A stretch of DNA of 37,107 nt from Acidithiobacillus sp. HP-2 (GTDB lineage Bacteria > Pseudomonadota > Gammaproteobacteria > Acidithiobacillales > Acidithiobacillaceae): assembly GCF_015100155.1 (NCBI RefSeq), contig NZ_JACKZA010000022.1:1-37107 (forward strand), in the 5' to 3' direction. Positions within the stretch are counted from its first letter, which is position 1; every line of letters starts with the position of its first letter. Below are positions 4,140 through 17,764 of this stretch, piece by piece. The translations under genes were made by a program, and so were the position numbers. The notes under the pieces were generated by a model that saw only the letters and a list, made by a program, of their open reading frames with translations, was not told the origin of the DNA and did not search any database.

Positions 4140-4212
4140 TAGAGGGCTCCTCAAATGCGCTACAAATGATGGTCTATACTATACAGCGTAGTTCAATGAT
4201 GACATTGTGTGC

Positions 4213-4236
4213 TGCCGTGCCGTGCCGTGCCGTGCC
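4213..4236 (+). repeat. Pentanucleotide tandem repeat (TGCCG x 4.8)
   Basis: Four full copies of TGCCG plus a partial fifth lie in the intergenic region, 64 bases before the nuoA start codon. The 160-base gap between the divergent hypothetical gene and nuoA must hold the nuo promoter; a TATACT at 4175-4180 is a possible -10 but no good -35 is visible. The repeat may therefore lie in the 5' untranslated leader. Confidence 0.85.
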
Positions 4237-4299
4237 TGGATTCTGGAAAGGGGGCTTTTTGTATTTTCCGACAAAAATCGCACTTTGGGGGAATCGGCA

Positions 4300-4659
4300 A
4301 TGATGGCGAGTCCTGCCCTGATAGTTGGGATTTTTGCCGCTGCAGTGTTGCTGGTATTGATGATTATTCTCTGGATATCGGGTCTGCTCGGCGGACAACA
4401 CCCCAATCGCAATAAAAACATTCCTTTTGAAAGTGGGCTGGGAGCCAACACCAGTACGCATCCGCGAACCCCCGTTGCTTTTTATCTTCTGGCCGTTTCC
4501 TTTCTGGTGTTTGAGCTGGAAGCCGCTTTTCTTTTTGCCTGGGCAGTGGCTTTTCATGCCCTGGGCTGGGGACCGGTTGTGGCTGGACTGGCTTTTATGG
4601 TGATCCTGGGTCTGGGCTTGTTTTATGAGTGGCGTATGGGAGGTTTGCAATGGCATTAG
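4300..4659 (+). CDS. nuoA: NADH-quinone oxidoreductase subunit A
   Basis: NuoA is a small three-helix membrane subunit at the joint between the arms of complex I, next to the quinone site. The 119-residue protein has the conserved loop [20 protein letters not shown] between helices 1 and 2, and helix 2 has [11 protein letters not shown], with Glu in place of the usual Asp followed by the conserved Glu. Start: ATG 4300 has GGGGGA 7 bases upstream; an in-frame ATG at 4207 would run through the pentanucleotide repeat and gives an N-terminus not seen in the family. It is first in the nuo operon; its last 10 bases overlap nuoB. Confidence 0.95.
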
Positions 4660-5150
4660 CTCCGGGTCCCTTGTCTTTGCTGGTGGGCAAATTTGAAGAA
4701 ATACTGGCTTGGAGTCGGGCAGGTTCTCTCTGGCCCCTGAATTTTGGTACTTCCTGCTGTTTTATTGAAATGGTGGCTGCCGTGACGCCCCGCCATGATT
4801 TGTCGCGATTTGGTGCCGAGGTGCTGCGTGGCTCGCCCCGGCAGTCGGATGTGCTGATCACTTCAGGGACGATTTTCGTGAAAATGGCGCCCATGATTCT
4901 GGAGATATATGAACAAATGCTGGAGCCCAAATGGGTAATTTCCATGGGCTCCTGTTCCAATTCCGGAGGCATGTATGATGTCTACAGCGTGGTCCAGGGT
5001 ATTGATCGACTGCTGCCCGTAGATATTTATGTGCCGGGTTGTCCACCCCGTCCGGAAGCCCTGATGGACGGTTTGTTATTGTTGCAGCAGAAAATCCGGC
5101 GTAATCCTCCCCGGATATTTCAGCGGGAGCTGACCCATGCTTCTGGCTGA
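4650..5150 (+). CDS. nuoB: NADH-quinone oxidoreductase subunit B (N2 cluster subunit)
   Basis: NuoB carries the [4Fe-4S] cluster N2, the last electron carrier before quinone. The 166-residue protein shows all four ligands: the tandem Cys36-Cys37 in [12 protein letters not shown], Cys102 in [12 protein letters not shown] and Cys131 in [15 protein letters not shown]. The ATG at 4650 has GGGAGG six bases upstream; an earlier start at 4629 has none. It overlaps nuoA by 10 bases and nuoCD by 14, so translation of the three is probably coupled. No transmembrane segment; it sits in the peripheral arm facing the cytoplasm. Confidence 0.96.
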
Positions 5151-6837
5151 GATGCTGCAAAAGCACTTTGCTGCGAGTCCGGTTACCGATGGGCGGGATG
5201 GCTGGCCGGATTTTCTGCTGCCTGAAGAGCAGTTGCTGCCGGCCATGCAATTCCTGCATGAACAAATGCAACCGTCTTTTCCGATGTTGCTGGATTTGAC
5301 GGCCGTGGATGAAGGACCACAGGGTGCCTCAGAGGCTGCACAATATACCTTGACCTATCATCTGCACGGACTGGAGGGTTGTGGTGCCCTGCGTTTGCGG
5401 GTGACACACGCCGACGCCGAGCTTCCGGTACCGTCGATAACCGGTATTTTTGCCAATGCCAATTGGTATGAACGGGAAGTGTACGATCTGTTTGGTCTAA
5501 AGTTCAGTGGTCATCCGGATTTGCGGCGCATTTTACTCCCGCCCCTCTGGGAAGGGCACCCGCTGCGAAAAAGCGAAGCCATCCGTGCCACAGAGCGCCC
5601 CGCCTATCGTTTGAGTAAAACCGATTTGCAGGAAGCACTCAAAGCCTACAGCGACGAGGTGTCAGCTCCGGAATCCGGGCAGACGGTACTGAATGTTGGC
5701 CCACATCATCCCGGAACCCACGGAATTTTGCGCTTTGTACTGAAAATTTCCGGGGAAAAAATTGCCAGCGTGGACCCCGATATTGGTTATCACCATCGGG
5801 GTGTGGAAAAAATAGCCGAAGGACATACGTTCCATAATTTTATTCCCTATACCGACCGGGTGGATTATCTGGGGGGAATCCTGGGTGAGTTTCCCTATGT
5901 CCGTGCGGTGGAGATGCTGGCGGATTTGCAATTGCCGGATCGTGCCGAAGGTATCCGGACCTTGTTGGCGGAAATCTGCCGGATATCTTCCCATTTGGTG
6001 TGGCTGGGCAGCTATGGAAATGATCTCGGCACCATGGGACCGGCATTTTATGCGTTTCGGGATAGGGCGTTGTTGCTCGATCTGATCGAAAAATATACCG
6101 GCGGGCGCCTGCACCCACAGTTTTTTCGGATTGGTGGAGTAGCGGCTGACTTGCCGGAGGACTGGCGCGCTGATCTGCTGCAAGTCCTCCAGAAAGTGGA
6201 GTCGGGTTTGCGGGATACGGAGACGCTCACCGTAGGGAATCCCATTTTCCGTGCCCGCACTCAGGGGATTGGGGTGTTGTCAGCGGCGCAGGCGGAAAAG
6301 TGGGGCGCATCGGGTATTGTCTTGCGCAGTACGGGCAAAGCCTGGGATATGCGCAAAGCAGCACCCTACGGGCTATACGATGCTCTTGATTTTGAGGTAC
6401 CGACCTCCACTGATGGGGATGCTTTAGCCAGAACCCAACTGCATATTGATGAGATTCGCGAAAGTATCGGGATGCTTCGTCAGCTCGCCGACAAAATGCC
6501 GGATGGTGCGACTCTGGCTGCTGACGCCCGGTATGCCCTGCCACCCAAAGACCATACCTTGCGGGATATTGAAACGCTGATTCATCATTTCGAGCAGATG
6601 GCGGGCGAAATTGGTCCTCCTGCAGGACAGGTACTGAGCATCACCGAGTCAGCGCGCGGCATGCTCGCCTATTACATTGTGGCTGACGGTAGCGCCCACC
6701 CATACCGGCTAAGGGTACGGACTCCTTCCTTCCCCCACGTCCAGCTGATTACCGAACTGGGGCGCGATACGGCCCTCCCCGATTTTATTGCCACGATTGG
6801 ATCCATAGATTATGTCCTCGCCGACCTCGATCGTTGA
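5137..6837 (+). CDS. nuoCD: NADH-quinone oxidoreductase fused subunits C and D
   Basis: This 566-residue protein joins the 30-kDa (NuoC) and 49-kDa (NuoD) subunits, as in E. coli. The NuoC part (about 1-150) ends in the signature [21 protein letters not shown] and EGHPLRKS. After a linker, NuoD begins near residue 184 with [16 protein letters not shown], containing the His of the quinone-binding loop, followed by [11 protein letters not shown] and TDRVDYLGG. It ends in [17 protein letters not shown], the usual SxDxVxGEVDR region. The domain forms the roof of the quinone chamber with NuoB. The start (ATG 5137) has GGGAGC upstream and overlaps nuoB; the end overlaps nuoE by 26 bases. The NuoC part is shorter than in many species, and the linker is about 30 residues. 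Confidence 0.95.
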
Positions 6838-7324
6838 CTTGAATGATGCATCGCTTCTCGCCAGGTTGCAGGATCTGGTGGCGGCGTCACCGGTTCCGGA
6901 AGCTGCCATCAGTGAAGTCCTGCAGGTCCTGCAAAAGGCCCGAGGCTACATTGACGGGGATGCATTGCGTCTGGCAGCGTCTTTGACCGGGTTGAGTCCG
7001 GTCAGGGTCGAAGAGCTCTGCACCTTTTACAGTCTGGTGTTGCGTGAACCGGTGGGCACCCATGTTCTGCGCATCTGTGACAGCATCGCCTGCCATATGG
7101 CCGGAGCTCAGGATATCCTGACTCAAGCCCGCCAGCATTCGGGCGTGGATCTCGGTGAGGTCAGTCGCAGTGGCAAGCTGACGGTGATACCGCATGTCTG
7201 CATTGGCCTCTGTGATCGGGCCCCCGCCCTGATGGTGGATGATCAGGCGCTGGGTCCGGTGGATACCCAGACATTGACCCGGCTTTTGGCACAACTGGAG
7301 GCGGATATATGGAAGCCATCCTGA
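6812..7324 (+). CDS. nuoE: NADH-quinone oxidoreductase subunit E ([2Fe-2S] N1a)
   Basis: NuoE is the 24-kDa thioredoxin-like subunit that carries cluster N1a next to the FMN of NuoF. The 170-residue protein has a helical N-terminal half (EVLQVLQKARGYIDGDALR, VEELCTFYSLVLREPVG) and the ligand pattern C-x4-C (Cys89, Cys94 in ICDSIACHMAG) and C-x3-C (Cys130, Cys134 in HVCIGLCDRAPAL). All four ligands are present. ATG 6812 lies inside the end of nuoCD and has only a weak ribosome site, so translation may depend on coupling to nuoCD. It overlaps nuoF by 16 bases. Confidence 0.95.
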   Translation: MSSPTSIVDLNDASLLARLQDLVAASPVPEAAISEVLQVLQKARGYIDGDALRLAASLTGLSPVRVEELCTFYSLVLREPVGTHVLRICDSIACHMAGAQDILTQARQHSGVDLGEVSRSGKLTVIPHVCIGLCDRAPALMVDDQALGPVDTQTLTRLLAQLEADIWKPS

Positions 7325-8568
7325 GCCGGCATTTTGCAGATCGCGATCCGGCAGATCTGCGCGTTTACCGGGATGCCGGTGGGTATGTGGGGCTTGCAAG
7401 AGCCGTGCAGATGGATCCCGCTGATATTATTGCGGAACTGGAAAAATCCGGACTTCGGGGTTGTGGTGGTGCGGGCTTTCCGACGGGCCTCAAATGGCGG
7501 CTGCGCGGAGTTGATGCTCCTGAACCGCGTTATCTGGTTTGCAATCTGGATGAAACCGAGCCGGGCAGTATCAAGGACCGGGCTCTGCTTTTCGGGGCTC
7601 CGCACCATATTCTGGAAGGCATGTTTATTGCGGCGCACGCTCTGGGGGTGCGCTATGCCGTCGTTTTTGTACGGGGTGAATATGCAGCAGGTGCCCGTGT
7701 TCTGGAAAAAGCGCTGCATCAGGCCCGCGAGGCAGGACTAATGCGCTTGCCTGATGGCGATTTGCGCCTGGATATTCATGTTTCTTTGGGACGCTATATT
7801 TGTGGCGAAGATTCGGCCATTCTCAATGCCATTGAAGGCAAACGCGCAAATCCGCGTAAAAAACCGCCGCATATCAGTCAGCAGGGGCTCTGGCAGCAAC
7901 CGACCACCGTCAACAACGCCGAAAGCATTGCGCATTTGCCGGGTATTTTTGCGCATGGCGCGGACTGGTTTCGCAGTCTGGGTGTCAATGGCGGCGTGGG
8001 CAGCAAATTGTACAGTGTCTGCGGCCCTGCAAAACGCCCCGGTGTTTTTGAATTGCCCATGGGAACGACCGCTCAGGAAATACTGTTTGAACATGCAGGA
8101 GGTTTGCTGCCAGGGCGCACTTTGCGCGCGGTGTTGCCGGGTGGCTCCTCCACACCCTTTCTGATGCCCGAACACTTTGATACGCCCATGCATTTTGATG
8201 CAGTGGCCAAAGTCGGTTCCCGACTGGGCACCGGGGGCTTTATTCTGATGGATGATCGGCAGTGCCCCGTCGATTTTCTGGTGGCGACGACCCGTTTTTT
8301 CGCGCGCGAATCGTGCGGGTTCTGCACCCCCTGCCGGGAGGGCCTGCCCTATGTGCGCTGGTTGCTGGAGCGGATTGAGGCTGGAGAAGGCAGTGCCGAG
8401 GATATTGCGACCCTGCATCAGCTCGGTGGGCAAATTGCGCCCAACAGTTTTTGTGCGTTGGCTCCGGGAGCGCTGATGCCGGTGCTTTCGGGTTTACATG
8501 CCTTTGCGGATGATTTTGAGACGCATGTTCGTCTGGGTCATTGTCCATATCGGGGGCCTCAATCATGA
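7309..8568 (+). CDS. nuoF: NADH-quinone oxidoreductase subunit F (NADH/FMN/N3)
   Basis: NuoF binds NADH, FMN and the [4Fe-4S] cluster N3. In this 419-residue protein the glycine-rich flavin/nucleotide region reads GLRGCGGAGFPTGLKW (49-64), then CNLDETEPGSIKDR with the acidic pair next to NADH, then GRYICGEDSAILNAIEGKRANPR. The N3 ligands are in ESCGFCTPCREG and NSFCALAPG. Two deviations stand out: Cys52 replaces the Arg of the almost invariant GRGGAG, and GEDSA replaces GEETA at a segment linked in E. coli and Aquifex to nucleotide handling (from memory). Both are encoded clearly and flanked by intact sequence, so a sequencing error is unlikely though not excluded. It overlaps nuoE by 16 bases and shares ATGA with nuoG. 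Confidence 0.95.
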   Translation: MEAILSRHFADRDPADLRVYRDAGGYVGLARAVQMDPADIIAELEKSGLRGCGGAGFPTGLKWRLRGVDAPEPRYLVCNLDETEPGSIKDRALLFGAPHHILEGMFIAAHALGVRYAVVFVRGEYAAGARVLEKALHQAREAGLMRLPDGDLRLDIHVSLGRYICGEDSAILNAIEGKRANPRKKPPHISQQGLWQQPTTVNNAESIAHLPGIFAHGADWFRSLGVNGGVGSKLYSVCGPAKRPGVFELPMGTTAQEILFEHAGGLLPGRTLRAVLPGGSSTPFLMPEHFDTPMHFDAVAKVGSRLGTGGFILMDDRQCPVDFLVATTRFFARESCGFCTPCREGLPYVRWLLERIEAGEGSAEDIATLHQLGGQIAPNSFCALAPGALMPVLSGLHAFADDFETHVRLGHCPYRGPQS

Positions 8569-10862
8569 AGCATGTATTTTTTCTGGATGGCCAGGAGATC
8601 CCCTTCATCCCTGGACAGAACGTGCTGGAGGCGGCTATTGCTGCCGGAAAAAATCAGCAGATCCCCTATTTTTGTTTTCATCCCGCCTTGGGAAGTCTGG
8701 GGGCTTGTCGGCAATGTGCCGTGAAAATGTACGCCCATGACAGCAAACACCCACCCCGGATTACCATGGCCTGCCTGCTGCCGGCCAGCGATGGCCTGCA
8801 ACTGGTTACTCTGGAAGACGACGTGCATACCGAGCATCGGGAAATCATTGAGCTATTGATGACCAACCATCCGCTTGACTGTCCGGTCTGTGATGAGGGT
8901 GGACAATGTCATCTTCAGGATATGACGGTGCAGACCGGACATAGCGTGCGCCATTACAGCGGTCCGAAGCGTACCTATCGCAATCAGGACCTCGGTCCTT
9001 TGGTGTATCAGGAAATGAATCGCTGTATTACCTGCTATCGCTGCGTGCGTTTTTATCAGGATGCTGCCCAGGGTGAGGATTTCGGGGTGTTCGGCTCCCG
9101 CAACCGGGTCAGCTTTGGTCGCCTGGAAGATGGGCCGCTGGAAAGTCCTTTCAGTGGGAATCTGGTCGAAGTCTGTCCGACGGGCGTATTTACGGACAAG
9201 GTTTTTCGTCATGATTATGTCAGGGTTTGGGATTTGCAGCAGGGTCCTTCGGTATGTCCCCATTGTGCGGTGGGTTGTAACACGACTCCCGGAGCGCGTC
9301 TGGGAACCTTGCGCCGCATACGAAACCGCATACGGCCGGAAATAAATGGTCACTTCCTCTGTGACCGGGGTCGTTATGCTTTTCCCTACGTGACGGCAAA
9401 TTCCCGGCCCCTGCAGCCCCGCCTGATGGGCGAAACCACTCGTCAGGATGCCGTCTTGCGTCAGCTGGCCAGCCGTCTGGAAGAAGGACGCAGTGGCTTC
9501 CTGGGCTCCCCGCGCGAAGATCTGCAAAGTAATCTGGGTCTTTTTGCGTTGGCAGACTGCCTGCATGCGCCTTTTGCTGCGGTAACCAGTTCCTGGGCAG
9601 AAGCTCTGGCGCAACAATGTCTGGCACTTCCGCAGGCGCCCAGTTTGCAGGAAGTGGCGGCGGCCGACCGCATTGTGGTCATCGGCGATCTGGACAGCAT
9701 TGCCCCCATGGCGGGTTTTGCCGTACGTCAGGCATTGCGCCAGGGCGCACGCTTGACGGTGCTGGCCAGCAGCCGGACCGAATTGGCCCAAAAAGGGGAT
9801 TATCGGCCTTTACGCCCCAGTGCCTTGCGTGATCAGGTTGCCCAATTAGCGGATGATCCCTGTTTGCAGGGGGGGCGGTTTCCAGTGCTGTTGGCCACCG
9901 CAGAAACCCTGGGTCCATCTGGTTTGTATGCACTGCGCAAAACCCTGGAAAAACTGCCTGCCAACGCCCGGGCCGGTGCTTTTGTCAATCGACCCAATTT
10001 GTTTGGGGCCGCCTATTTTGCGGCAGACGGTCATACCGAGCGCCTGCAGCAGGCCTTGCGGCAACGCAAAATCAATCATCTGCTTTGTCTGGGCGCTGAT
10101 CCCTTGGGCGAGGACTGGGGGGCGGGTACCTGGCGCACACTCGCTCCAGGTCTGGATGGTCTGACCTTGCTGGATATGGTTGATTCGGAAACGGCCAGAA
10201 GCGCAGAAGCCTTGATACCCGTGGCGGCCTTTCCCGAGCGGGCCGGTTTATTTGTAAATTATGAAGGCCGGATTCAGGCGTTTTCACCGGTTTATCGCCG
10301 CGAGGCGCTGGTGCTGCACTCGGCTGTGCAGGGCAGCGGCTTTCCTGAGGCCGCCGGTGGCTTGAAGCACCCGATCGGTCCGCCGCCGCCATTGTTTTGG
10401 CTGGGTCGTCTGGCGGAAATGCTGCACTTGCACGAAGCCTGGCAAAAACGGCTGGATTTTTATTTGCATTTTCTGTGTCCTGAACGGCCAGACCCGGAGG
10501 GTCCCGGAGTTTTGTTGCCAGACACTATTCGTGCCCGCTTTGAAATCGCAGCAGTTCCGGCAACCCGGACGGTGACGCCCGAGCAATGGGAACTCGATAT
10601 TTTTCGCTGGTATGGTGGGGAAACGCTGGCTGATACGGCCGACGAACTGCATTCTCTGGCTCCGGCCCGGGGTTTGCGGGTGCATCCGGATGTTCAGGCC
10701 GTGGCTGCTACTTTGCATGGTCCTTGCGGAGACTTGCAGTTGCCGGTTATTGCCTGCGCAGAAATGGTCCAAGGGGTTATTGCCATTGATCAGGAAGGTT
10801 TCGCCGAACTGGGCTTATATCCTGGTGATCCCGTCGAAGTCAGCTGGGAGCAACGCCAATGA
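8565..10862 (+). CDS. nuoG: NADH-quinone oxidoreductase subunit G (Fe-S clusters N1b, N4, N5, N7)
   Basis: The 765-residue NuoG passes electrons through the peripheral arm. Ligands in order: N1b at Cys37, Cys48, Cys51, Cys70; N5 at His102, Cys106, Cys109, Cys115; N4 at Cys154, Cys157, Cys160, Cys204. A further C-x2-C-x3-C-x27-C (Cys231, 234, 238, 266) is the N7 motif kept in E. coli, Thermus and Aquifex but lost in mitochondria. The rest (about 270-765) is the molybdopterin-oxidoreductase-like domain, which in complex I binds no cofactor. Start is ATG 8565 in the ATGA overlap with nuoF; a GGGGG run 8 bases upstream is a weak ribosome site. The C-terminal domain is much more divergent than the Fe-S part. 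It overlaps nuoH by four bases. Confidence 0.94.
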   Translation: MKHVFFLDGQEIPFIPGQNVLEAAIAAGKNQQIPYFCFHPALGSLGACRQCAVKMYAHDSKHPPRITMACLLPASDGLQLVTLEDDVHTEHREIIELLMTNHPLDCPVCDEGGQCHLQDMTVQTGHSVRHYSGPKRTYRNQDLGPLVYQEMNRCITCYRCVRFYQDAAQGEDFGVFGSRNRVSFGRLEDGPLESPFSGNLVEVCPTGVFTDKVFRHDYVRVWDLQQGPSVCPHCAVGCNTTPGARLGTLRRIRNRIRPEINGHFLCDRGRYAFPYVTANSRPLQPRLMGETTRQDAVLRQLASRLEEGRSGFLGSPREDLQSNLGLFALADCLHAPFAAVTSSWAEALAQQCLALPQAPSLQEVAAADRIVVIGDLDSIAPMAGFAVRQALRQGARLTVLASSRTELAQKGDYRPLRPSALRDQVAQLADDPCLQGGRFPVLLATAETLGPSGLYALRKTLEKLPANARAGAFVNRPNLFGAAYFAADGHTERLQQALRQRKINHLLCLGADPLGEDWGAGTWRTLAPGLDGLTLLDMVDSETARSAEALIPVAAFPERAGLFVNYEGRIQAFSPVYRREALVLHSAVQGSGFPEAAGGLKHPIGPPPPLFWLGRLAEMLHLHEAWQKRLDFYLHFLCPERPDPEGPGVLLPDTIRARFEIAAVPATRTVTPEQWELDIFRWYGGETLADTADELHSLAPARGLRVHPDVQAVAATLHGPCGDLQLPVIACAEMVQGVIAIDQEGFAELGLYPGDPVEVSWEQRQ

Positions 10863-11815
10863 TGCTTTTTCTGATGGCTCTGGGCATGTTGTTTACCACC
10901 TTGGTTTTACTCGGCGTGGCGGGTTTTCTGGTATTTGCAGAGCGGCGGGTTCTGGGTTTTCTGCAGAATCGTCTGGGCCCCAATCGACTGGGTCCTCTGG
11001 GCGTTGGCCAGGCGCTTGCCGATGCCCTCAAGTTGATGAGCAAAGAAAATTTTGTGCCCGATTTTGCCGATCCGGTACTTTACCGGACGGCGCCGGTTCT
11101 GGTGGCTTTCAGCGCTTTGGCCAGCTTTGCCGTGGTACCGCTGGATCATCATTTTTCCTGGGCAGGCAACTGGAATATCGGTTTGTTGTTCATTCTGGCC
11201 ATGAGTTCTCTGAACGCCTATGGAGTATTTCTGGGGGGCTGGGCTTCGGGCAACAAGTTTTCCCTGCTGGGCGCAGTCCGGGCAGTGGCCCAGTTGGTCA
11301 GCTATGAGTTACCCATGGGACTGGCCCTTTTGGGTGTGGTTTTGCTGAGTGGATCGCTGTCCCTCAACGGGATTGTCGCGGCGCAAAATCTGCCCTATAT
11401 CGTCCTTCAGCCTCTGGGTTTTGTCATTTTTCTGATAGCCGGTGTAGCGGAAACCCACCGCCTTCCCTTTGATTTGCCCGAAGCAGAAAGCGAATTGGTG
11501 GCCGGATTTAATACAGAATACGGGGGGATGCGCTTTGGCTATTTCTTCCTGGGAGAGTATCTTGGCCTGACCTTGATCGCAGTGCTGACGGCATTACTTT
11601 ACCTCGGCGGCTGGCATGGTCCCTGGCTACCCGGATGGATCTGGTTGCTGATCAAGACGGCAGCGGTGATTTTCGTGTTTTTCTGGTTGCGGGCGACCTT
11701 GCCCCGACCACGTTATGACCAGCTAATGGCCTTGGGCTGGAAAGTGCTTCTGCCACTGGCCCTGTTCAATGTGCTTGCGACAGCTTTGGCGGCAGCTTTG
11801 TGGAGGCTGGCATGA
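10859..11815 (+). CDS. nuoH: NADH-quinone oxidoreductase subunit H
   Basis: NuoH (318 aa, eight hydrophobic helices) forms the membrane side of the quinone tunnel and the E-channel. The key charged positions of E. coli NuoH are all seen: Glu in VFAERRVLG, Asp in QALADALKL, Glu in LVSYELPMG, and the acidic loop PFDLPEAESELVAGF followed by NTEYGGMRF. The tail LRATLPRPRYDQLMALGWK is a family hallmark. This subunit is thus canonical, in contrast to NuoK, NuoM and NuoN. The first ATG of an ATGATG pair at 10859 overlaps the nuoG stop; GGGAG lies 9 bases upstream. Confidence 0.96.
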   Translation: MMLFLMALGMLFTTLVLLGVAGFLVFAERRVLGFLQNRLGPNRLGPLGVGQALADALKLMSKENFVPDFADPVLYRTAPVLVAFSALASFAVVPLDHHFSWAGNWNIGLLFILAMSSLNAYGVFLGGWASGNKFSLLGAVRAVAQLVSYELPMGLALLGVVLLSGSLSLNGIVAAQNLPYIVLQPLGFVIFLIAGVAETHRLPFDLPEAESELVAGFNTEYGGMRFGYFFLGEYLGLTLIAVLTALLYLGGWHGPWLPGWIWLLIKTAAVIFVFFWLRATLPRPRYDQLMALGWKVLLPLALFNVLATALAAALWRLA

Positions 11816-12342
11816 GGGTCTGGCGCAATATCTCCGAACTGGGTGCAGGGCTGTGGACGACCTTGCGTCAGCTGGGCCGAACTTCAACCGTCAGTTATCC
11901 TGAGGAGCCTTTGAACTTGCCGCCACGCTGGCGGGGACGGCCCGTACTTACGCGTGATCCCGACGGTGATGAGCGCTGCGTTGCCTGCCAGCTTTGTTCA
12001 GCGGTATGTCCGACGCGTTGCATTGAATTGCAAGCCGGAGAGCGCCCTGACACGCGCCGCTATCCACTGACGTTCCGCATTAATTTTTCCCGGTGCATTT
12101 ATTGCGGCCTCTGTGAGGAGGCTTGTCCGACGCTGGCCATCCAGCTCCTCGATGAATTTGCTTTCAGTAAAGAACACCACGCTGATTTTATCTACGAAAA
12201 AGAGGCGTTGCTCATTGACGGGACGGGTAAGCATCCGCATTACAATTTTTATCGGCATTCCGGAGTGGCGCTGCAAGACAAGGATAAAGGTGAGGGCATC
12301 AACGAAAAAACGCCCGTCAATGTCCGGAGTAATCTGCCATGA
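11812..12342 (+). CDS. nuoI: NADH-quinone oxidoreductase subunit I (clusters N6a/N6b)
   Basis: NuoI is a ferredoxin-like subunit with two [4Fe-4S] clusters leading to N2. The 176-residue protein shows C-x2-C-x2-C-x3-C twice: Cys56, 59, 62, 66 in CVACQLCSAVCP and Cys95, 98, 101, 105 in CIYCGLCEEACP. The N-terminal amphipathic segment LGAGLWTTLRQLGR would lie on the membrane surface. GGAGG five bases before ATG 11812 decides the start over a GTG at 11800. It overlaps nuoH and nuoJ by four bases each. The C-terminal tail (about 30 residues after HPHYNFYRHSG) is polar and poorly conserved. Confidence 0.95.
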   Translation: MRVWRNISELGAGLWTTLRQLGRTSTVSYPEEPLNLPPRWRGRPVLTRDPDGDERCVACQLCSAVCPTRCIELQAGERPDTRRYPLTFRINFSRCIYCGLCEEACPTLAIQLLDEFAFSKEHHADFIYEKEALLIDGTGKHPHYNFYRHSGVALQDKDKGEGINEKTPVNVRSNLP

Positions 12343-12833
12343 CAATTTTTCTGATCTTGCTGTTATTGTTGATCATTCTCACAGCGGGAGCCGCGTTGCT
12401 GGTGGTCCGTGATCCCATGCATGGCGCGGTGAATCTGGGCGTCAGCCTGCTGGCCTTGAGCATTCTGTTTCTGGTGCTGGGAGCACCTTTTGTCGCTGCT
12501 CTGGAAGTGATGTTGTATGTGGGCGCTATTCTGGTCCTTTTTCTTTTTGCCATCATGTTGTTACGCACTCCGCTGACGATCCGGGAAGAACCGCGCTGGC
12601 GCCGGGGTTTTTGGTGGCCAGCGGTGCTGGTGGTTCTGCTGACGGCAGTCCTGATCCTTCTTTTCAGTCGTCGCCCGGATCTGATGGTGCTTATTCAGGA
12701 AATAGGCCCAGGCACAGTAGGGCGTGCCCTTTTTGGTCCCTATCTCTGGCTTACGGAGTCTGTGGCGCTGCTGCTCTTTGCCGTGATTGCCGCCGTGCTG
12801 GCCATTCATCGGAGGGATGATCATGACGCTTGA
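12339..12833 (+). CDS. nuoJ: NADH-quinone oxidoreductase subunit J
   Basis: NuoJ (164 aa) has five predicted membrane helices and packs beside NuoK, NuoA and NuoH. The third helix has the conserved AALEVMLYVGAILVLFLF, including the Glu and Tyr that line the proton path, so this subunit looks normal at its key positions. The segment LFGPYLWLTESVALLLF near the C-terminus matches the family. ATG 12339 is in the ATGA overlap with nuoI; GGAG lies 10 bases upstream. The end overlaps nuoK by 11 bases. Confidence 0.93.
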   Translation: MTIFLILLLLLIILTAGAALLVVRDPMHGAVNLGVSLLALSILFLVLGAPFVAALEVMLYVGAILVLFLFAIMLLRTPLTIREEPRWRRGFWWPAVLVVLLTAVLILLFSRRPDLMVLIQEIGPGTVGRALFGPYLWLTESVALLLFAVIAAVLAIHRRDDHDA

Positions 12834-13134
12834 ACTCGCACTGGTGATTGCCGCATTACTTTTTGTGACTGGAATGGCGTTGATCATTTTGCGCCGCAAT
12901 CTCATTTTTTTGTTGCTGGGCATTGAGTTGCTCTTTAACGCTGCCATGGTCATTGCCCTGGCCGGAGGTGCCCGCTGGCATTCTGTCACCGGGCAAGTAC
13001 TGGTGGTGTTCATGATGGCGCTGAGCGGTGCGGCCCTGGCTTTGACCCTGGCCTTGTTGTTGCGCGTCAAACAGGAACTGGGCGGGGATACGGTAGATGA
13101 CCTGCGGCAGCTTCGGGAGGAAGTCGATGAATGA
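12823..13134 (+). CDS. nuoK: NADH-quinone oxidoreductase subunit K, lacking the second membrane Glu
   Basis: NuoK (103 aa) has three helices and a core similar to MrpC. Helix 2 keeps the first essential Glu (Glu35 in LLGIELLFNA, E36 of E. coli). Helix 3 reads VFMMALSGAALALTLALLL; in E. coli the matching stretch has AAAEASIGLALLL. Aligned from the shared ALLL end without gaps, the second conserved Glu (E72) is Ala71 here. The start ATG 12823 has GGAGGG six bases upstream; the ATG at 12817 touches the ribosome site. The C-terminal 25 residues form a charged cytoplasmic tail. Identity is clear from position, size and helix 2. The lost Glu, together with changes in NuoM and NuoN, suggests an altered proton path (inference). 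Confidence 0.93.
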   Translation: MTLELALVIAALLFVTGMALIILRRNLIFLLLGIELLFNAAMVIALAGGARWHSVTGQVLVVFMMALSGAALALTLALLLRVKQELGGDTVDDLRQLREEVDE

Positions 13135-14989
13135 GTGGCTTTTTCTAATCCCTGGTTTTCCTCTGCTGGGGGCGTTGCTGAATAGCATTTTTGGGGAGCA
13201 TTTTTCGCCACGGCAAATAGGTCGCATGGCCGCAACCATGCCCTTCCTGTCTACCCTGGTGGTATTTGCAGTCTGGATGACCCACGGTCGCGACCCGAAT
13301 CTCCATGAACAGGTCTGGACCTGGATTTCGGTGGGTAATTTCCATGCCAATATAGGCTTTCATGTAGATCAAGTGACTTTGGTCATGATCAGTATTGCCT
13401 CCTTTGTAGGTTTTCTGATTCATCTGTTTTCCCAGCAATATCTGAACGGGGATTACGGCGAGCGGCGCTACTATTTTTATTTGAACTTATTTGTGGGCGG
13501 AATGCTGATTCTCACCATGGCAGATAACCTGCTGCTTCTGTACCTGGGCTGGGAGACGGTCGGCTTGTGTTCTTATGCCCTGGTGGCGCACTGGTATCGC
13601 AAACAGGAAAATGCCTGGGCCGGGCGCAAGGCATTTGTGGTGACCCGTATTGGGGATACGGCCCTGGCATTGGCAATATTTATCCTGTTTGCCGAATATC
13701 ACACCCTCAATTACCACACCCTGTTTGCGGCTGTGGCGGCCCGCCCCGATCTGCTGGCCCTCACCATAGCGGGGATTTTGGTGTTGATTGGTGCTGTCGC
13801 CAAATCTGCGCAGTTTCCTCTGCATATCTGGTTGCCGGATTCCATGGCCGGTCCCAGTACGGTCTCCGCCCTGATTCATGCGGCTACCATGGTCACTGCT
13901 GGCGTGTATTTGTGTATTCGTCTGTACCCTATTTTTGCAGCAGTCCCCGGGATGCTCTGGGTGATCGGGTTGAGCGGGGCTTTTACCGCCCTGTATGCGG
14001 CAAGTTGCGGTATTGCTCAGGTGGACATCAAGCGGGTGCTGGCCTACTCCACCATCAGCCAGCTGGGCTACATGTTTCTCGGGGTGGGCATTGGTGCTCC
14101 TTCACTCGGCCTTTTCCATCTGCTTGTACATGCCTGTTTCAAAGCACTGCTGTTTATGGGGGCAGGTGTAGTCATTCTCATCTACAGTGATAATCATGAT
14201 ATTCGCCAGATGGGCGGTCTCAAAAAGCAGCAACCCTTTTTACGCTGGACGTTTCTGGCGGGTATTTTTGCCCTGGCTGCCGTACCTGTCATTTCGGCTT
14301 CTTTCTATAGCAAGGACGCCATTATTGCTACGGCTTTTATCGTCCCCGGTGGCAAGCTGCTCTGGGTGCTGGCATTGCTGGGCGCGGTATTTACGGCGAT
14401 TTATGCGTTTCGGCTTTATTTTCTGGTGTTTGAAGGCCCGGAAAAGCTGGGCGAGCCCTATCAGATGGGTTGGGGCATGAAAATTCCTCTGGGAATCCTG
14501 GCCGTTGCCAGTATTGGTATTGGCTGGCTGCAGTTTCCGCCGGGCTGGCCAGGCCCGAAAATCTGGTTACCCTGGCTGGCTCCAGAGTTGGGCATGCCGC
14601 CAGCCCCGTCGGGGGATGTGAATATTTTTCTGCAAGTGGCGGGTTCAGTGGCCACCCTCATTGGTATTGCCATTGCCTACAAAGCCGCACAATGGGAGCG
14701 TGAAGGTCGTGGCCTCAGTCGCATAGCCTTTCTTTTCAATGCCTGGTTTTTCGACCGGATTTTTCTACGCATTTTTCCGCCCATCTGGTACGCATTTGCG
14801 CATATCCTGGACCGGCTGATTGAGCAGGGCGGTTTTCAACTGATGCTGCTCGGCGGGTTGAGAGATGGTTTCGGGCTTGGTAGCCGTGCTCTGGAAGCGG
14901 GTGAAAATGGCCTGATCAGTCGCTATGCCAGTGGCATGATTCTGGGTCTGGTGGTACTGCTCTTCATCGCCTGGGGGTACTTGTTGTGA
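13127..14989 (+). CDS. nuoL: NADH-quinone oxidoreductase subunit L (distal antiporter-like)
   Basis: NuoL (620 aa) is the distal antiporter-like subunit with the long lateral helix. Its functional positions look canonical: Glu in LLYLGWETVGLCSYALV (TM5), Asp in TRIGDTAL, Lys in AKSAQFPLHIWLPDSMAGPS (TM7), His in SALIHAATMVTAGVYL (TM8), the CGIAQVDIKRVLAYSTISQ motif, Lys in HACFKALLFMG, and Lys in SFYSKDAII (TM12). It thus serves as an internal control against which the changes in NuoM and NuoN stand out. ATG 13127 has GGGAGGA about five bases upstream and overlaps nuoK by 8 bases. It shares GTGA with nuoM. Confidence 0.96.
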   Translation: MNEWLFLIPGFPLLGALLNSIFGEHFSPRQIGRMAATMPFLSTLVVFAVWMTHGRDPNLHEQVWTWISVGNFHANIGFHVDQVTLVMISIASFVGFLIHLFSQQYLNGDYGERRYYFYLNLFVGGMLILTMADNLLLLYLGWETVGLCSYALVAHWYRKQENAWAGRKAFVVTRIGDTALALAIFILFAEYHTLNYHTLFAAVAARPDLLALTIAGILVLIGAVAKSAQFPLHIWLPDSMAGPSTVSALIHAATMVTAGVYLCIRLYPIFAAVPGMLWVIGLSGAFTALYAASCGIAQVDIKRVLAYSTISQLGYMFLGVGIGAPSLGLFHLLVHACFKALLFMGAGVVILIYSDNHDIRQMGGLKKQQPFLRWTFLAGIFALAAVPVISASFYSKDAIIATAFIVPGGKLLWVLALLGAVFTAIYAFRLYFLVFEGPEKLGEPYQMGWGMKIPLGILAVASIGIGWLQFPPGWPGPKIWLPWLAPELGMPPAPSGDVNIFLQVAGSVATLIGIAIAYKAAQWEREGRGLSRIAFLFNAWFFDRIFLRIFPPIWYAFAHILDRLIEQGGFQLMLLGGLRDGFGLGSRALEAGENGLISRYASGMILGLVVLLFIAWGYLL

Positions 14990-16446
14990 TCCTGGTAACG
15001 GTGTTGATTGTTCTCCCCTGGGGTGCGGCGCTGTGGCTTTCTGCGCAAAAACAAAGTGGTCAGTACTTTGCCATGAGCATCGCGCTGGTCGAATTGTTGT
15101 TGGCGTTGATTCAGCGTTTTGCCCCCGGAGCCAGCGGCACTTTAGGGCATGCTCTCCATATCCCTTATCTGGGTAGTCTTTGGACCTTGCACGCTGGCCC
15201 TCTGGGCAGCACCCTGGCGCTTCTGTGCGCTTTGCTGATTCCGGTGAGTCTGGCTTTTGCCTGGCGCTTACCCGAATTCCGGGTGCTGGCGAGTGCCGTG
15301 CTGGTGATGTCCGGGGCTTTGTTCGGGATATTTTTCGCTCAAAATGTCCTGATGTTTTATATTTTTTATGAAATCCTCGCGTTGGCGGGAGCTTTCCTGA
15401 TTTTGCGCAGTGGTCACAAAAGTCGTGCTGCTGCCCTACAGTTTTTGTTGTACACCTTCGTTGGGTCCTTACTTTTTCTGGTCGCACTGGTTGTGGTTTA
15501 TGTCCTCCACGGTCAGCAGACTGGAATCTACAATTTTTCCATTTTGCAGCTTGCTGACACCCGTATTACCGGGGGTCTCGGTATCTGGCTGTTTTTGGGT
15601 ATGGTCGCCGGCCTGGCGGTCAAAATGCCACTTTTCCCTCTGCATAGTTGGGCGGGTACTGGCTACGGCAATGCCGCGCCGGCGGGGAGTGTGTTTCTTT
15701 CGGGGGCCGCCGTGACAGCGGGTGCCTATGGCCTGATTCATTTTGCTATCCCCATGCTTCCCCAGGCGGCACTGGAGTTTGCCCCGGTCGGCATTATTCT
15801 CGGTGCAATCGGGACCCTGTATGGGGCCTTCCTCGCCCTCAATGCTGCCAACCTTCGCCTTTTCGCAGCCTGGGCCAGTGTCAGCCACATGAATCTGGTG
15901 GCTCTCGGACTGTTTGCCCTGCAAACGCAGGCCATACATGGCAGTGTGTTTTTGCTGATTGCGCACGGCGTGGTTTCGGCAGGACTGTTCGGCGTAGTCA
16001 GCATTATGGAAAGCCGGGGTTTGACGGGAGAATGGTCAGGGCTGGGAGGCTTGTTTCGACGCGCGCCCCGTCTCGGTGCCTGGATGCTTTTTTTCTTTCT
16101 GGCGGGAATGGGGCTGCCGGGGCTAGCCAATTTTCCTGGAGAGTTTCTCAGCCTCGCAGGGGCCTTTCGGGTGTTGCCTTGGGCTGCTGGACTGGCGACC
16201 TTGGGGATCCTCGCGGGTGTGGTCTATTTTTTACGTGCCTACGAGCGGATCATGCTGGGTCCGCTGAACGGAACCTTGCCGGATAATCTGGTGGATTTGC
16301 AGCAGAGCGAGTGGTTGCTGTTCTGGGTGCTGGGACTGCTGACCTTGTGGCTCGGCCTGGATCCCCAGATCATTCTTGCCCATCTGGGTACCCTGCTCTC
16401 CATGCATAGTGGAGATGTCATTGCCGGAGGTGGTCATGGCTTATAG
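14986..16446 (+). CDS. nuoM: NADH-quinone oxidoreductase subunit M, divergent at proton-path motifs
   Basis: The 486-residue protein is NuoM by order, size, about 14 helices and clear similarity. It keeps Glu129 in FYIFYEILAL (TM5), Lys213 in AVKMPLFPLHSW (TM7), the HGVVSAGLF motif and Glu in NFPGEFLSLAGAF (TM12). It departs from the family where others read WLPDAHxxAPTAGSV and LLKxxxYG: here it has SWAGTGYGNAAPAGSV and AAVTAGAYG, so the TM8 Lys (K265 of E. coli) is Thr244. The DxKR-x-x-AYxSVSHMG motif reads NLRLFAAWASVSHMN (289-303), losing Asp and changing KR to RL. The alignment has no gaps, so a frameshift is not the cause. Start is GTG 14986 overlapping the nuoL stop. Confidence 0.92.
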   Translation: MILVTVLIVLPWGAALWLSAQKQSGQYFAMSIALVELLLALIQRFAPGASGTLGHALHIPYLGSLWTLHAGPLGSTLALLCALLIPVSLAFAWRLPEFRVLASAVLVMSGALFGIFFAQNVLMFYIFYEILALAGAFLILRSGHKSRAAALQFLLYTFVGSLLFLVALVVVYVLHGQQTGIYNFSILQLADTRITGGLGIWLFLGMVAGLAVKMPLFPLHSWAGTGYGNAAPAGSVFLSGAAVTAGAYGLIHFAIPMLPQAALEFAPVGIILGAIGTLYGAFLALNAANLRLFAAWASVSHMNLVALGLFALQTQAIHGSVFLLIAHGVVSAGLFGVVSIMESRGLTGEWSGLGGLFRRAPRLGAWMLFFFLAGMGLPGLANFPGEFLSLAGAFRVLPWAAGLATLGILAGVVYFLRAYERIMLGPLNGTLPDNLVDLQQSEWLLFWVLGLLTLWLGLDPQIILAHLGTLLSMHSGDVIAGGGHGL

Positions 16447-17764
16447 TCCAACCTTGCTGCCATTACTCATAGTTGCTGCTGCGGCACTGATTGCTTTTCT
16501 CGCAGATGCCCTGCGGCTGGGTCGACTCATGCCCTGGTTAGGCGGAATCAGCAGCATTGCTGCTGCAGCCAGTATTTTCGTCGAGCATATGGCTCTGGGA
16601 GCTGATCTGTACTGGGATCTCAGCGCCACTCTTCTCGGTGTCTATTTGAGCCTTGCCATGGCGGCGGGACTGTTTTTTATTACCTTTCATCCACTTTCCC
16701 GAAAAATGACAGGCAGTTTGGTTGGGCTGTTGCTGACTATGTTGGCGGGTAGTCTGATTTTGGTGAGTGCCCAGAATCTTCTGTTGATGTTTGTTGGTCT
16801 GGAGCTGCAGGTGTTACCTTTTTTTGCGTTGCTGGCCTGGCCTGGCAGCGGCCGCGCAGCCGTAGAATCCGCCTTTAAATATGCGGTGCTGGCCGGGCTT
16901 GCATCGGCCCAGTTTGCCATTGGAATTGCCTTGATTTATCTGGGTGATGGCAGTCTGGCAGTGATTCCGCCAATGGGTGATATGACATCCAATGTATTCG
17001 GATTGATGGGCGTGCTGGCCTTACTGGCCGCTTTGAGTTTTGAGATTGCCGCCGCGCCTTTTCATGCCTGGGTAGCAGACATTTATCAAGGCGCGCCAGC
17101 GCCATTTCTGATTTTTCTAGGTGGAGTGGCAAAAGTCGCCATCATGGGGGCGCTGATTACCCTGGCGGCGGCAACACCAAAGCTGGAAATACCCATTGCC
17201 GTTATTGCGGCAACCAGCATTGTAGTGGGTAACGTCCTGGCTTATCGCGCCGGACATTTGCGAAGAATGTTGGGCTATTCGGCTATTGCCCATGCCGGTT
17301 ATTTTCTGGCCGCCCTCGCGGTCGGCCCCTTGGGTATCATCGCAGGCGCTATTTATGCCTTGGTGTATGGCCTGATGAACATGGGGACTTTCATGGGCCT
17401 GTCGGCGCTGCCGGAAAACAGCATTGCCATCCCCTGGGCGGCATTGCGGGAGCGCCAACCAGTACTGGCCGGGCTTCTGGGTCTGACTTTGCTCTCGCTG
17501 GCTGGAATGCCGCCCAGCATAGGTTTTTTTGCCAAATTGCTGGTCATTATCGCCGATGTGCACGACCAGGTCTATTGGTTGGCCATTCTGATTGCTCTCG
17601 GTAGCGCCTTTTCTTTTGCTTACTATCTCAGTACCTTGTGGAAGCCGTCCGTGCTCAGCAACCCCGACCGCCTGCTGCATCGGCGCAGTTGGGAGACTTT
17701 TGCCGCACTGGGCATATTGATCCTGCTATTCGGCTGGTTGCTGGCGCCCTTGGGGATGGGTTGA
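16436..17764 (+). CDS. nuoN: NADH-quinone oxidoreductase subunit N, TM7 Lys replaced by Glu
   Basis: NuoN (442 aa) is the antiporter-like subunit nearest NuoK. It retains Glu123 in FVGLELQVL (TM5), Lys148 in SAFKYAVL, Lys233 in GGVAKVAIMG (TM8) and Lys in GFFAKLLVI (TM12). At TM7 the family reads FKLxxxPFHxWxPDVYQGAPxP; here it is SFEIAAAPFHAWVADIYQGAPAP, so the central Lys (K217 of E. coli) is Glu203 and the Pro before Asp is Ala. The NIKR motif reads HLRR. The codon is GAG in clean sequence. ATG 16436 has GGAGG five bases upstream. It is shorter than many NuoN proteins. It is the last gene of the operon; no strong terminator follows before the rplM promoter. Confidence 0.92.
   Translation: MAYSPTLLPLLIVAAAALIAFLADALRLGRLMPWLGGISSIAAAASIFVEHMALGADLYWDLSATLLGVYLSLAMAAGLFFITFHPLSRKMTGSLVGLLLTMLAGSLILVSAQNLLLMFVGLELQVLPFFALLAWPGSGRAAVESAFKYAVLAGLASAQFAIGIALIYLGDGSLAVIPPMGDMTSNVFGLMGVLALLAALSFEIAAAPFHAWVADIYQGAPAPFLIFLGGVAKVAIMGALITLAAATPKLEIPIAVIAATSIVVGNVLAYRAGHLRRMLGYSAIAHAGYFLAALAVGPLGIIAGAIYALVYGLMNMGTFMGLSALPENSIAIPWAALRERQPVLAGLLGLTLLSLAGMPPSIGFFAKLLVIIADVHDQVYWLAILIALGSAFSFAYYLSTLWKPSVLSNPDRLLHRRSWETFAALGILILLFGWLLAPLGMG

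Follow-up and report, generated by a model that had tools for sequence, protein, structure and literature searches.

The DNA stretch of Acidithiobacillus sp. HP-2 analysed here (the window; 37,107 nucleotides, contig C19 of a 3.2 Mb genome) carries a complete complex I operon, NuoA to NuoN, on the forward strand at positions 4207-17764. NuoC and NuoD are fused, and each of the resulting 13 genes lies in one open reading frame (ORF). The operon contains one NuoM gene and does not belong to the complex I class with two NuoM subunits. By descent and architecture it is a complex I, predicted from its sequence to lack the standard charged axis. A check for a second nuo copy, proposed in a preliminary description of the window, found a canonical set with separate NuoC and NuoD on contig C48 of the same genome. 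The NuoM proteins of the two sets share about 33% identity.

Altered residues of the membrane arm

Residues were numbered as in E. coli K-12 and assigned by pairwise alignments to solved complexes and by MAFFT alignments. The preliminary description had reported Ala at the second membrane Glu of NuoK, Thr at the Lys of transmembrane helix (TM) 8 of NuoM together with loss of the LPDAH and DxKR motifs, and Glu at the TM7 Lys of NuoN. All of these readings were reproduced. The window axis reads E36/A72 in NuoK, E144/K234/T265/E407 in NuoM and E133/E217/K247/K395 in NuoN, corresponding to E72A, K265T and K217E; LPDAH is replaced by AGTGY, and K312 of DxKR by Arg. Standard axis residues are thus found at 10/10 tested sites of NuoL, 1/2 of NuoK, 3/4 of NuoM and 3/4 of NuoN. 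The charges said to persist elsewhere were also present: the ten NuoL sites, five NuoH sites and E55 of NuoJ are unchanged, and the acidic pair of NuoA reads F-E-L-E in the window translation (with no tally).

The same residues recur in a divergent clade of 18 loci from 17 genomes of three genera, some of the loci being fragmentary. Counts leave out rows gapped at a site and one unrelated antiporter ORF in L068. Position 72 of NuoK is Ala in 15/15 rows, position 217 of NuoN is Glu in 17/17, and position 265 of NuoM is Thr in 10 and Leu in 7 of 17; NuoN 133 is Glu in 16 and Asp in one. The clade NuoM also carries L244A, H248Y, R273H, H367L and R369G or R369S, each in 17/17, as well as K312R in all 18 NuoM rows, while H241, W243, H322 and H348 are unchanged. 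Outside the clade, 40 loci from 39 other Pseudomonadota families were standard, with E72 in 39/39 NuoK (pattern EE), K265 in 40/40 NuoM (EKKE) and K217 in 39/39 NuoN (EKKK). These loci were hand-picked from the better matches of a phylum-wide NuoM search and are therefore a non-random sample; one, L122, has only a NuoM-like gene. A further 29 loci (L085-L113), mostly from the same genomes as the 40, agree (NuoM 29/29, NuoN 28/28), and 11 canonical comparison operons, with NuoK found in ten, have the standard residues.

Two objections foreseen in the preliminary description were that ordinary complexes might share these residues and that a charge one helical turn away might compensate. The altered residues were absent from the 39-40 outside complexes, and no new charge was found within 7 residues of NuoK 72, NuoM 265 or NuoN 217 among same-chain sequence neighbours in four clade sequences. 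Near NuoM 248, some clade sequences carry Arg at 245 or 250. Fixation of the same sites across 17 genomes agrees with the view that the changes cluster in adjacent subunits beyond chance. Judged from these alignments, the altered residues are conserved, non-random and located in adjacent subunits. Chance or sequencing error was ruled out as their origin, as they recur in 17 genomes of three genera. Coordinates and properties of all genes are listed in Table 1.

Table 1. Genes of the divergent complex I operon in the window
Gene	Position	Strand	Basis	Remarks
NuoA	4207..4659	+	ORF	start uncertain, first ~30 codons may be untranslated; NCBIfam NuoA below cut-off, residues 36-149
NuoB	4629..5150	+	ORF, profile scan	four conserved cysteines present
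NuoCD	5137..6837	+	ORF, profile scan	fused as in E. coli; quinone-site His and Tyr motifs present
NuoE	6812..7324	+	ORF, profile scan	four cluster cysteines present
NuoF	7309..8568	+	ORF, profile scan	4Fe cysteines present; GRGG to GCGG and E183D clade-wide
NuoG	8541..10862	+	ORF, profile scan	E. coli cluster cysteines including N7-type set
NuoH	10859..11815	+	ORF, profile scan	five tested acidic residues unchanged
NuoI	11800..12342	+	ORF	both 4Fe cysteine sets present
NuoJ	12339..12833	+	ORF	E55 unchanged
NuoK	12823..13134	+	alignment	E36 unchanged (12925-12927); E72 to Ala (13033-13035)
NuoL	13127..14989	+	alignment	ten tested axis residues unchanged; T247S, P248T, G228A and other invariant positions differ
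NuoM	14986..16446	+	alignment	L244A (15652-15654), H248Y (15664-15666), K265T (15715-15717), K312R; E144, K234, H322, H348, E407 unchanged
NuoN	16430..17764	+	alignment	start GTG 16430 or ATG 16436; K217 to Glu (17042-17044); E133, K247, K395 unchanged

Integrity, spread and evolutionary order

The extent of change per subunit was assessed by comparing 14 reference complexes (13 for NuoB and NuoK) with 14 divergent rows, for all subunits other than NuoA and NuoCD. Among positions invariant in the references, those changed in all divergent rows numbered 37/100 in NuoM, 18/136 in NuoL, 11/62 in NuoN, 5/18 in NuoK, 8/22 in NuoJ, 9/80 in NuoH, 12/97 in NuoF, 6/74 in NuoG, 4/18 in NuoE, 2/56 in NuoB and 0/38 in NuoI. 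NuoM differs strongly from the ten other subunits pooled (75/601; Fisher 2e-8). It is the most changed subunit by number, with the small NuoJ and NuoK similar or somewhat lower in proportion. A wider reference of 52-54 rows gave 31/90 for NuoM, 14/117 for NuoL, 7/47 for NuoN and 6/16 for NuoK. The changes in NuoL include G228A beside K229 and the pair T247S/P248T.

Such extensive change in NuoM, together with the near inactivity of some equivalent single mutants (PMC9802314), could mean that the membrane arm pumps little or not at all, either because it is decaying or because its role is that of a scaffold. Two of the 14 full-length operons have single-base frame breaks, which may reflect error or recent decay: compared with the nearest relative, NuoJ of L052 (G004) is one base short, as are NuoF and NuoG of L063 (G026). 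However, in the other 12 operons, from three genera, all 13 genes each lie in one frame. The ratio of nonsynonymous to synonymous substitution rates (dN/dS) between the window and four relatives ranged from 0 to 0.23 in 12 subunits (all but NuoA), with synonymous rates saturated in several, farther comparisons and undefined in one. The highest value was that of NuoJ against G004, whose frame is broken. The low dN/dS rules out a pseudogene for the clade. Fixation extends to the newly acquired residues A244, Y248 and E217, the tested NuoL sites are unchanged, and the iron-sulfur (Fe-S) ligands and the quinone-site His/Tyr motifs are present in the 14/14 operons, one row departing or gapped in NuoF and NuoG. 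The row in question is probably L063, in which both genes have the frame breaks noted above.

Expression also argues against decay. The canonical copy of G021 (L070), a genome that we take to be A. caldus, has separate NuoC and NuoD. In an A. caldus transcriptome nuoCD is listed among regulated genes, and nuoCD and other nuo transcripts were lower under salt (PMC10599003). Because the canonical copy has the two genes apart, the nuoCD transcript would point to the divergent operon. We regard decay as very improbable. As a separate observation, some 155 additional bases interrupt NuoM of L050 (G002); the contig contains 98 N, and this break, too, may reflect error or recent decay.

The lineage of the divergent operon was examined by a tree of NuoCD, NuoF, NuoH and NuoL (LG+G4; altered subunits left out; 13 clade loci; rooted on 11 canonical operons). 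The divergent operon groups with E. coli-type operons, and a 100/100 branch separates it from the 11 canonical operons. A quick NuoL tree agrees, with the clade single and on the E. coli-type side, again with a warning of long branches. A class sample of 369 genomes yielded two outlying operons, with NuoM identities of 44% and 41%; the families of their genomes (5 and 3 genomes) gave no further relatives. A NuoM query of 398 phylum genomes, scoring at most three candidates per genome, matched 274 of them and gave nothing above 38% identity outside the genome itself, among the matches listed. A NuoN search of the contig collection returned five Acidithiobacillus loci and one remote match and reaches close relatives only.

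In the tree, L161 branches first, then L160, then the Acidithiobacillaceae clade, each step at 100/100; the E. coli-type operons fall outside this series, and a long-branch warning applies to L160 and the clade. L161 (G695) has the standard residue at every listed site but NuoM 367. L160 (G765) already has K217E and P228A in NuoN and L244A, H248Y, K265N, H367R and R369L in NuoM, and is still standard at NuoK E72 and at NuoM D246 and R273. If the tree holds, NuoN and NuoM therefore changed before NuoK. The residue states and the nesting suggest an order in which NuoN K217E arose first with the NuoM changes and NuoK E72A followed later. Position 217 of NuoN has accepted a single new residue, Glu, also in L160, while NuoM 265 is Thr, Leu or Asn. 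By their substitution patterns, the former looks like a new function and the latter like release from constraint. In L160 itself, which comes from a genome that may, judging partly by rusticyanin-like proteins below the cut-off in its family, be an Acidihalobacter relative, the gaps between NuoL and NuoM (5500-6522, about 1 kb) and between NuoH and NuoI (9844-10479, 0.6 kb) have similar-looking translations. Inspection by eye, with no homology search made, found only open frames and no evident kin or gene in these stretches, which are perhaps copies of a repeat.

Within the family, a divergent NuoM (at least 50% identity) was found in 17/29 genomes, 16 of which also have a canonical NuoM; the exception is 85% complete. 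Rusticyanin was above the cut-off in 8/29 genomes. One genome (G005) has both, five have neither, and the two features seldom occur together (Fisher p = 0.003, kinship ignored). The divergent copy therefore does not track iron-driven uphill electron flow. Iron oxidation is an unlikely setting in most carriers, and sulfur oxidation the likely one.

Proton uptake through NuoM and the NuoK/NuoN junction

To relate the altered residues to proposed proton paths, published positions were transferred to E. coli numbering with our own mappings from matching key residues (an offset of 30 for Thermus and of 2 for P. denitrificans). In simulations of Thermus Nqo13, the NuoM counterpart, cytoplasmic input runs from Lys282 by way of His218 and Asp228 to Lys235, and lateral transfer runs via His292 to Glu377 (PMC11496545). 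Lys282, His218 and Lys235 correspond to K312, H248 and K265, all three of which are replaced in the clade; His292 and Glu377 correspond to H322 and E407, both unchanged. In P. denitrificans, L242A, H246F and K263Q (L244, H248 and K265) are among six severely slowed Nqo13 variants. L242A and H246F lost nearly all activity and are taken as support for uptake at these sites, and K263Q was too slow for measurement (PMC9802314). A review proposes for ND4 a cytoplasmic input gated at the TM8 Lys; for ND2 it considers such an input improbable, though this may vary with the species (PMC10212512). NuoM of the divergent complex is thus, on this residue mapping, without most of the proposed cytoplasmic proton-uptake residues; the lateral-axis residues examined in NuoM and NuoL, by contrast, are unchanged. 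In NuoM the lateral line comprises E144, K234, H322, H348 and E407. The redox arm and the quinone-site motifs were likewise seen to be unchanged. NuoM E144, K234 and E407 and NuoN K247 and K395, which are among the sites reported as most sensitive, are all present.

With its new residues, the TM7b motif of NuoM has come to look like that of NuoN, a likeness clearest in L160 (WAPDTYQ). When NuoN positions were equated to NuoM 244 and 248 by motif, 37 of 39 other NuoN proteins had Thr or Ala at the first and 38 had Tyr at the second.

The changes in NuoN and NuoK were considered together. In E. coli, NuoN E133A was without effect, which its authors explain by the nearby Glu72 of NuoK, whereas K247A and K395A were severe (PMC13073174). 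Since NuoN K217, the Lys of the entry ion pair, has become Glu and the nearby NuoK E72 has become Ala, both changes fall at one junction.

Taken together, the most plausible single reading, which we favour only tentatively, is that the window encodes a second, divergent E. coli-type complex I beside the canonical one. Selection maintains it in Acidithiobacillaceae, most of them without rusticyanin, and its NuoM would act as a lateral relay that has no proton intake of its own. Instead of loading a proton itself, NuoM would only pass charge or protons between NuoN and NuoL, and the number moved per turnover would fall below four, perhaps to three. With three protons, the complex would balance at a greater proton motive force than the four-proton copy does. 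With a gap of 0.42 V between NADH and quinone, balance lies at 210 mV for four protons and 280 mV for three; with an assumed gap of 0.33-0.36 V for a reduced quinone pool, at 165-180 mV and 220-240 mV, respectively. Should the gradient of these acidophiles be near 250 mV, a four-proton machine would run backwards, and a three-proton machine would be near balance and might run forwards or, with a very reduced quinone pool, backwards. The divergent complex could then spend fewer protons on making NADH when the quinone pool is strongly reduced, or alternatively run forwards against a large acid gradient. A fuller version, a low-gear complex I, is in our view less likely than not: NuoM would be NuoN-like and without uptake of its own, the NuoK/NuoN junction would have exchanged its charges, NuoN gaining a Glu before NuoK lost one, and the enzyme would pump three protons per NADH at most, giving the cell two gears.

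Several observations weigh against these readings. The proton count stayed at four in every measurable Nqo13 variant of P. denitrificans (PMC9802314), and in E. coli the NuoN variant K217A retained about half of its NADH oxidase activity and 68-109% of pumping (PMC13073174). On these mutant results, single changes predict a slower enzyme rather than a lower-geared one, and some of the sites replaced in the clade cause severe defects when mutated alone. The suggestion in the preliminary description that such losses lower the number of protons pumped thus finds no support in the mutants, although a lowered proton/electron ratio in the divergent complex is possible. Thermus Asp228, which would be D258, is not conserved in ordinary copies and is Val in the canonical copy. 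New NuoM charges (E363, R438, E441, H273, or Arg 245 in 5/17) could give another route. The canonical Acidithiobacillus-type NuoN has Leu, Ile or Val (11/11), not Thr or Ala, at the match to NuoM 244, with Tyr at the match to 248. NuoL is also altered, as the wider reference showed, and the two frame-broken operons count here as well. Finally, G005 combines the divergent copy with rusticyanin, and the intermediate genome G765 has rusticyanin-like proteins below the cut-off.

A serious alternative, which we place next after the favoured reading, is that the complex still pumps four protons. The changes would then adjust its rate, its gating or a pKa, to suit a very large proton motive force, for instance, and NuoL or a water chain would take on the proton uptake of NuoM. 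The four protons of the measurable Nqo13 variants fit this, and the authors of that study propose that a water network may stand in for the TM8 Lys (PMC9802314). It is also consistent with the pumping that remains in E. coli NuoN K217A and E133A, the latter backed up by NuoK Glu72 (PMC13073174), and with the unchanged lateral-axis and NuoL sites. However, this evidence comes from single mutants of four-proton enzymes. In the divergent clade at least four uptake-path residues are changed and retained, which simple retuning would not need, and the equivalent single mutants L242A and H246F are nearly inactive.

The preliminary description had viewed the charge losses as an adaptation of complex I to reverse electron flow in an acidophile, either making NADH cheaper in protons or blocking a leak. 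In published models, electrons from sulfur do reach complex I through the quinol pool and generate reducing power there (PMC3440390, PMC4109375), and at a gap of 0.33-0.36 V the balance point of a three-proton machine is one that the gradient of an acidophile may exceed. On the other hand, a lower proton/electron ratio makes reverse transport thermodynamically harder, and at 0.42 V more than 280 mV would be needed to run such a machine backwards. Of the 17 carriers, 16 also have the canonical copy, which could serve the same purpose, and 7 of the 8 rusticyanin-bearing family genomes lack the divergent copy. These points make adaptation to reverse flow unlikely.

Relation to known systems and further observations

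Compared with E. coli NDH-1, the window operon has in common the NuoCD fusion, the N7-type NuoG cysteines, NuoJ E55 and its side of the tree, but it differs by NuoK E72A, NuoM L244A/H248Y/K265T/K312R, NuoN K217E and NuoF E183D. The canonical C48 copy is of the same enzyme class and from the same genome, but belongs to a separate lineage and has standard residues at the tested axis sites, in addition to its separate NuoC and NuoD and low NuoM identity. Chadwick et al. (2018) reportedly described complex I with extra pumping subunits. This is likewise a natural change of the pumping arm, but it adds capacity, whereas the window complex has the normal subunit number and the uptake residues of one subunit replaced. 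Two nuo clusters similar to those of A. caldus have been reported in A. thiooxidans A01 (PMC4109375). They are very probably the same operon pair; the part of that report drawn on here gives their presence and no residue analysis. Engineered Nqo13 and NuoN mutants change several of the same residues (PMC9802314, PMC13073174, PMC11496545), but these are, in the material drawn on, single laboratory changes, with Lys to Ala or Arg in NuoN, whereas the window holds an evolved set with Lys to Glu. In agreement with the preliminary description, which knew of no earlier account, no prior report of this residue pattern was found in the open-licence literature, among the matches listed.

A key unsolved question about complex I is which of its subunits take up and release the four protons, and uptake-channel mutants made in the laboratory are sometimes too slow to be measured. 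A natural enzyme that selection has retained without most of the proposed NuoM uptake residues offers a test case. Its cell also contains a normal complex I for comparison, and L160 (partly changed) and L161 (unchanged) provide an evolutionary series. If the fuller low-gear version is true, two complexes I of different gear, with different directions or costs, would work under one proton motive force.

NuoF GCGG and E183D (window 7309-8568) occur in 14/14 divergent operons. The references vary at these positions: the Arg is present in 10/11 and the Glu in 11/11 canonical copies, and one E. coli-type copy has Met and Ala. The positions presumably lie near the nucleotide site, and by sequence the substrate preference of NuoF could differ in the divergent clade. 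A search of open-licence papers for NuoF E183D together with NADPH gave no match.

In an NCBIfam scan of ten of the 13 proteins (all but NuoI, NuoJ and NuoL), NuoB, NuoD, NuoH and NuoM scored above the cut-off, and NuoA, NuoE, NuoF, NuoG, NuoK and NuoN below it (NuoN TIGR01770, 234.1 of 332.6 bits). Regarding the flanks, the g1 loci have the flanking genes of the window in common and the g3 and g4 loci little or nothing, without a functional hint. Five more antiporter-like matches lie outside both nuo operons on contigs C11, C22 and C46 of the genome (L010, L011, L012); our guess is that they belong to hydrogenase-like and carbon-uptake complexes. Another second E. coli-type complex I, L066 (G011:C1:78000-95500), carries NuoM K265Q and H348S, NuoN K395E and NuoL D400G, and its type of NuoN was found in 1/29 family genomes.

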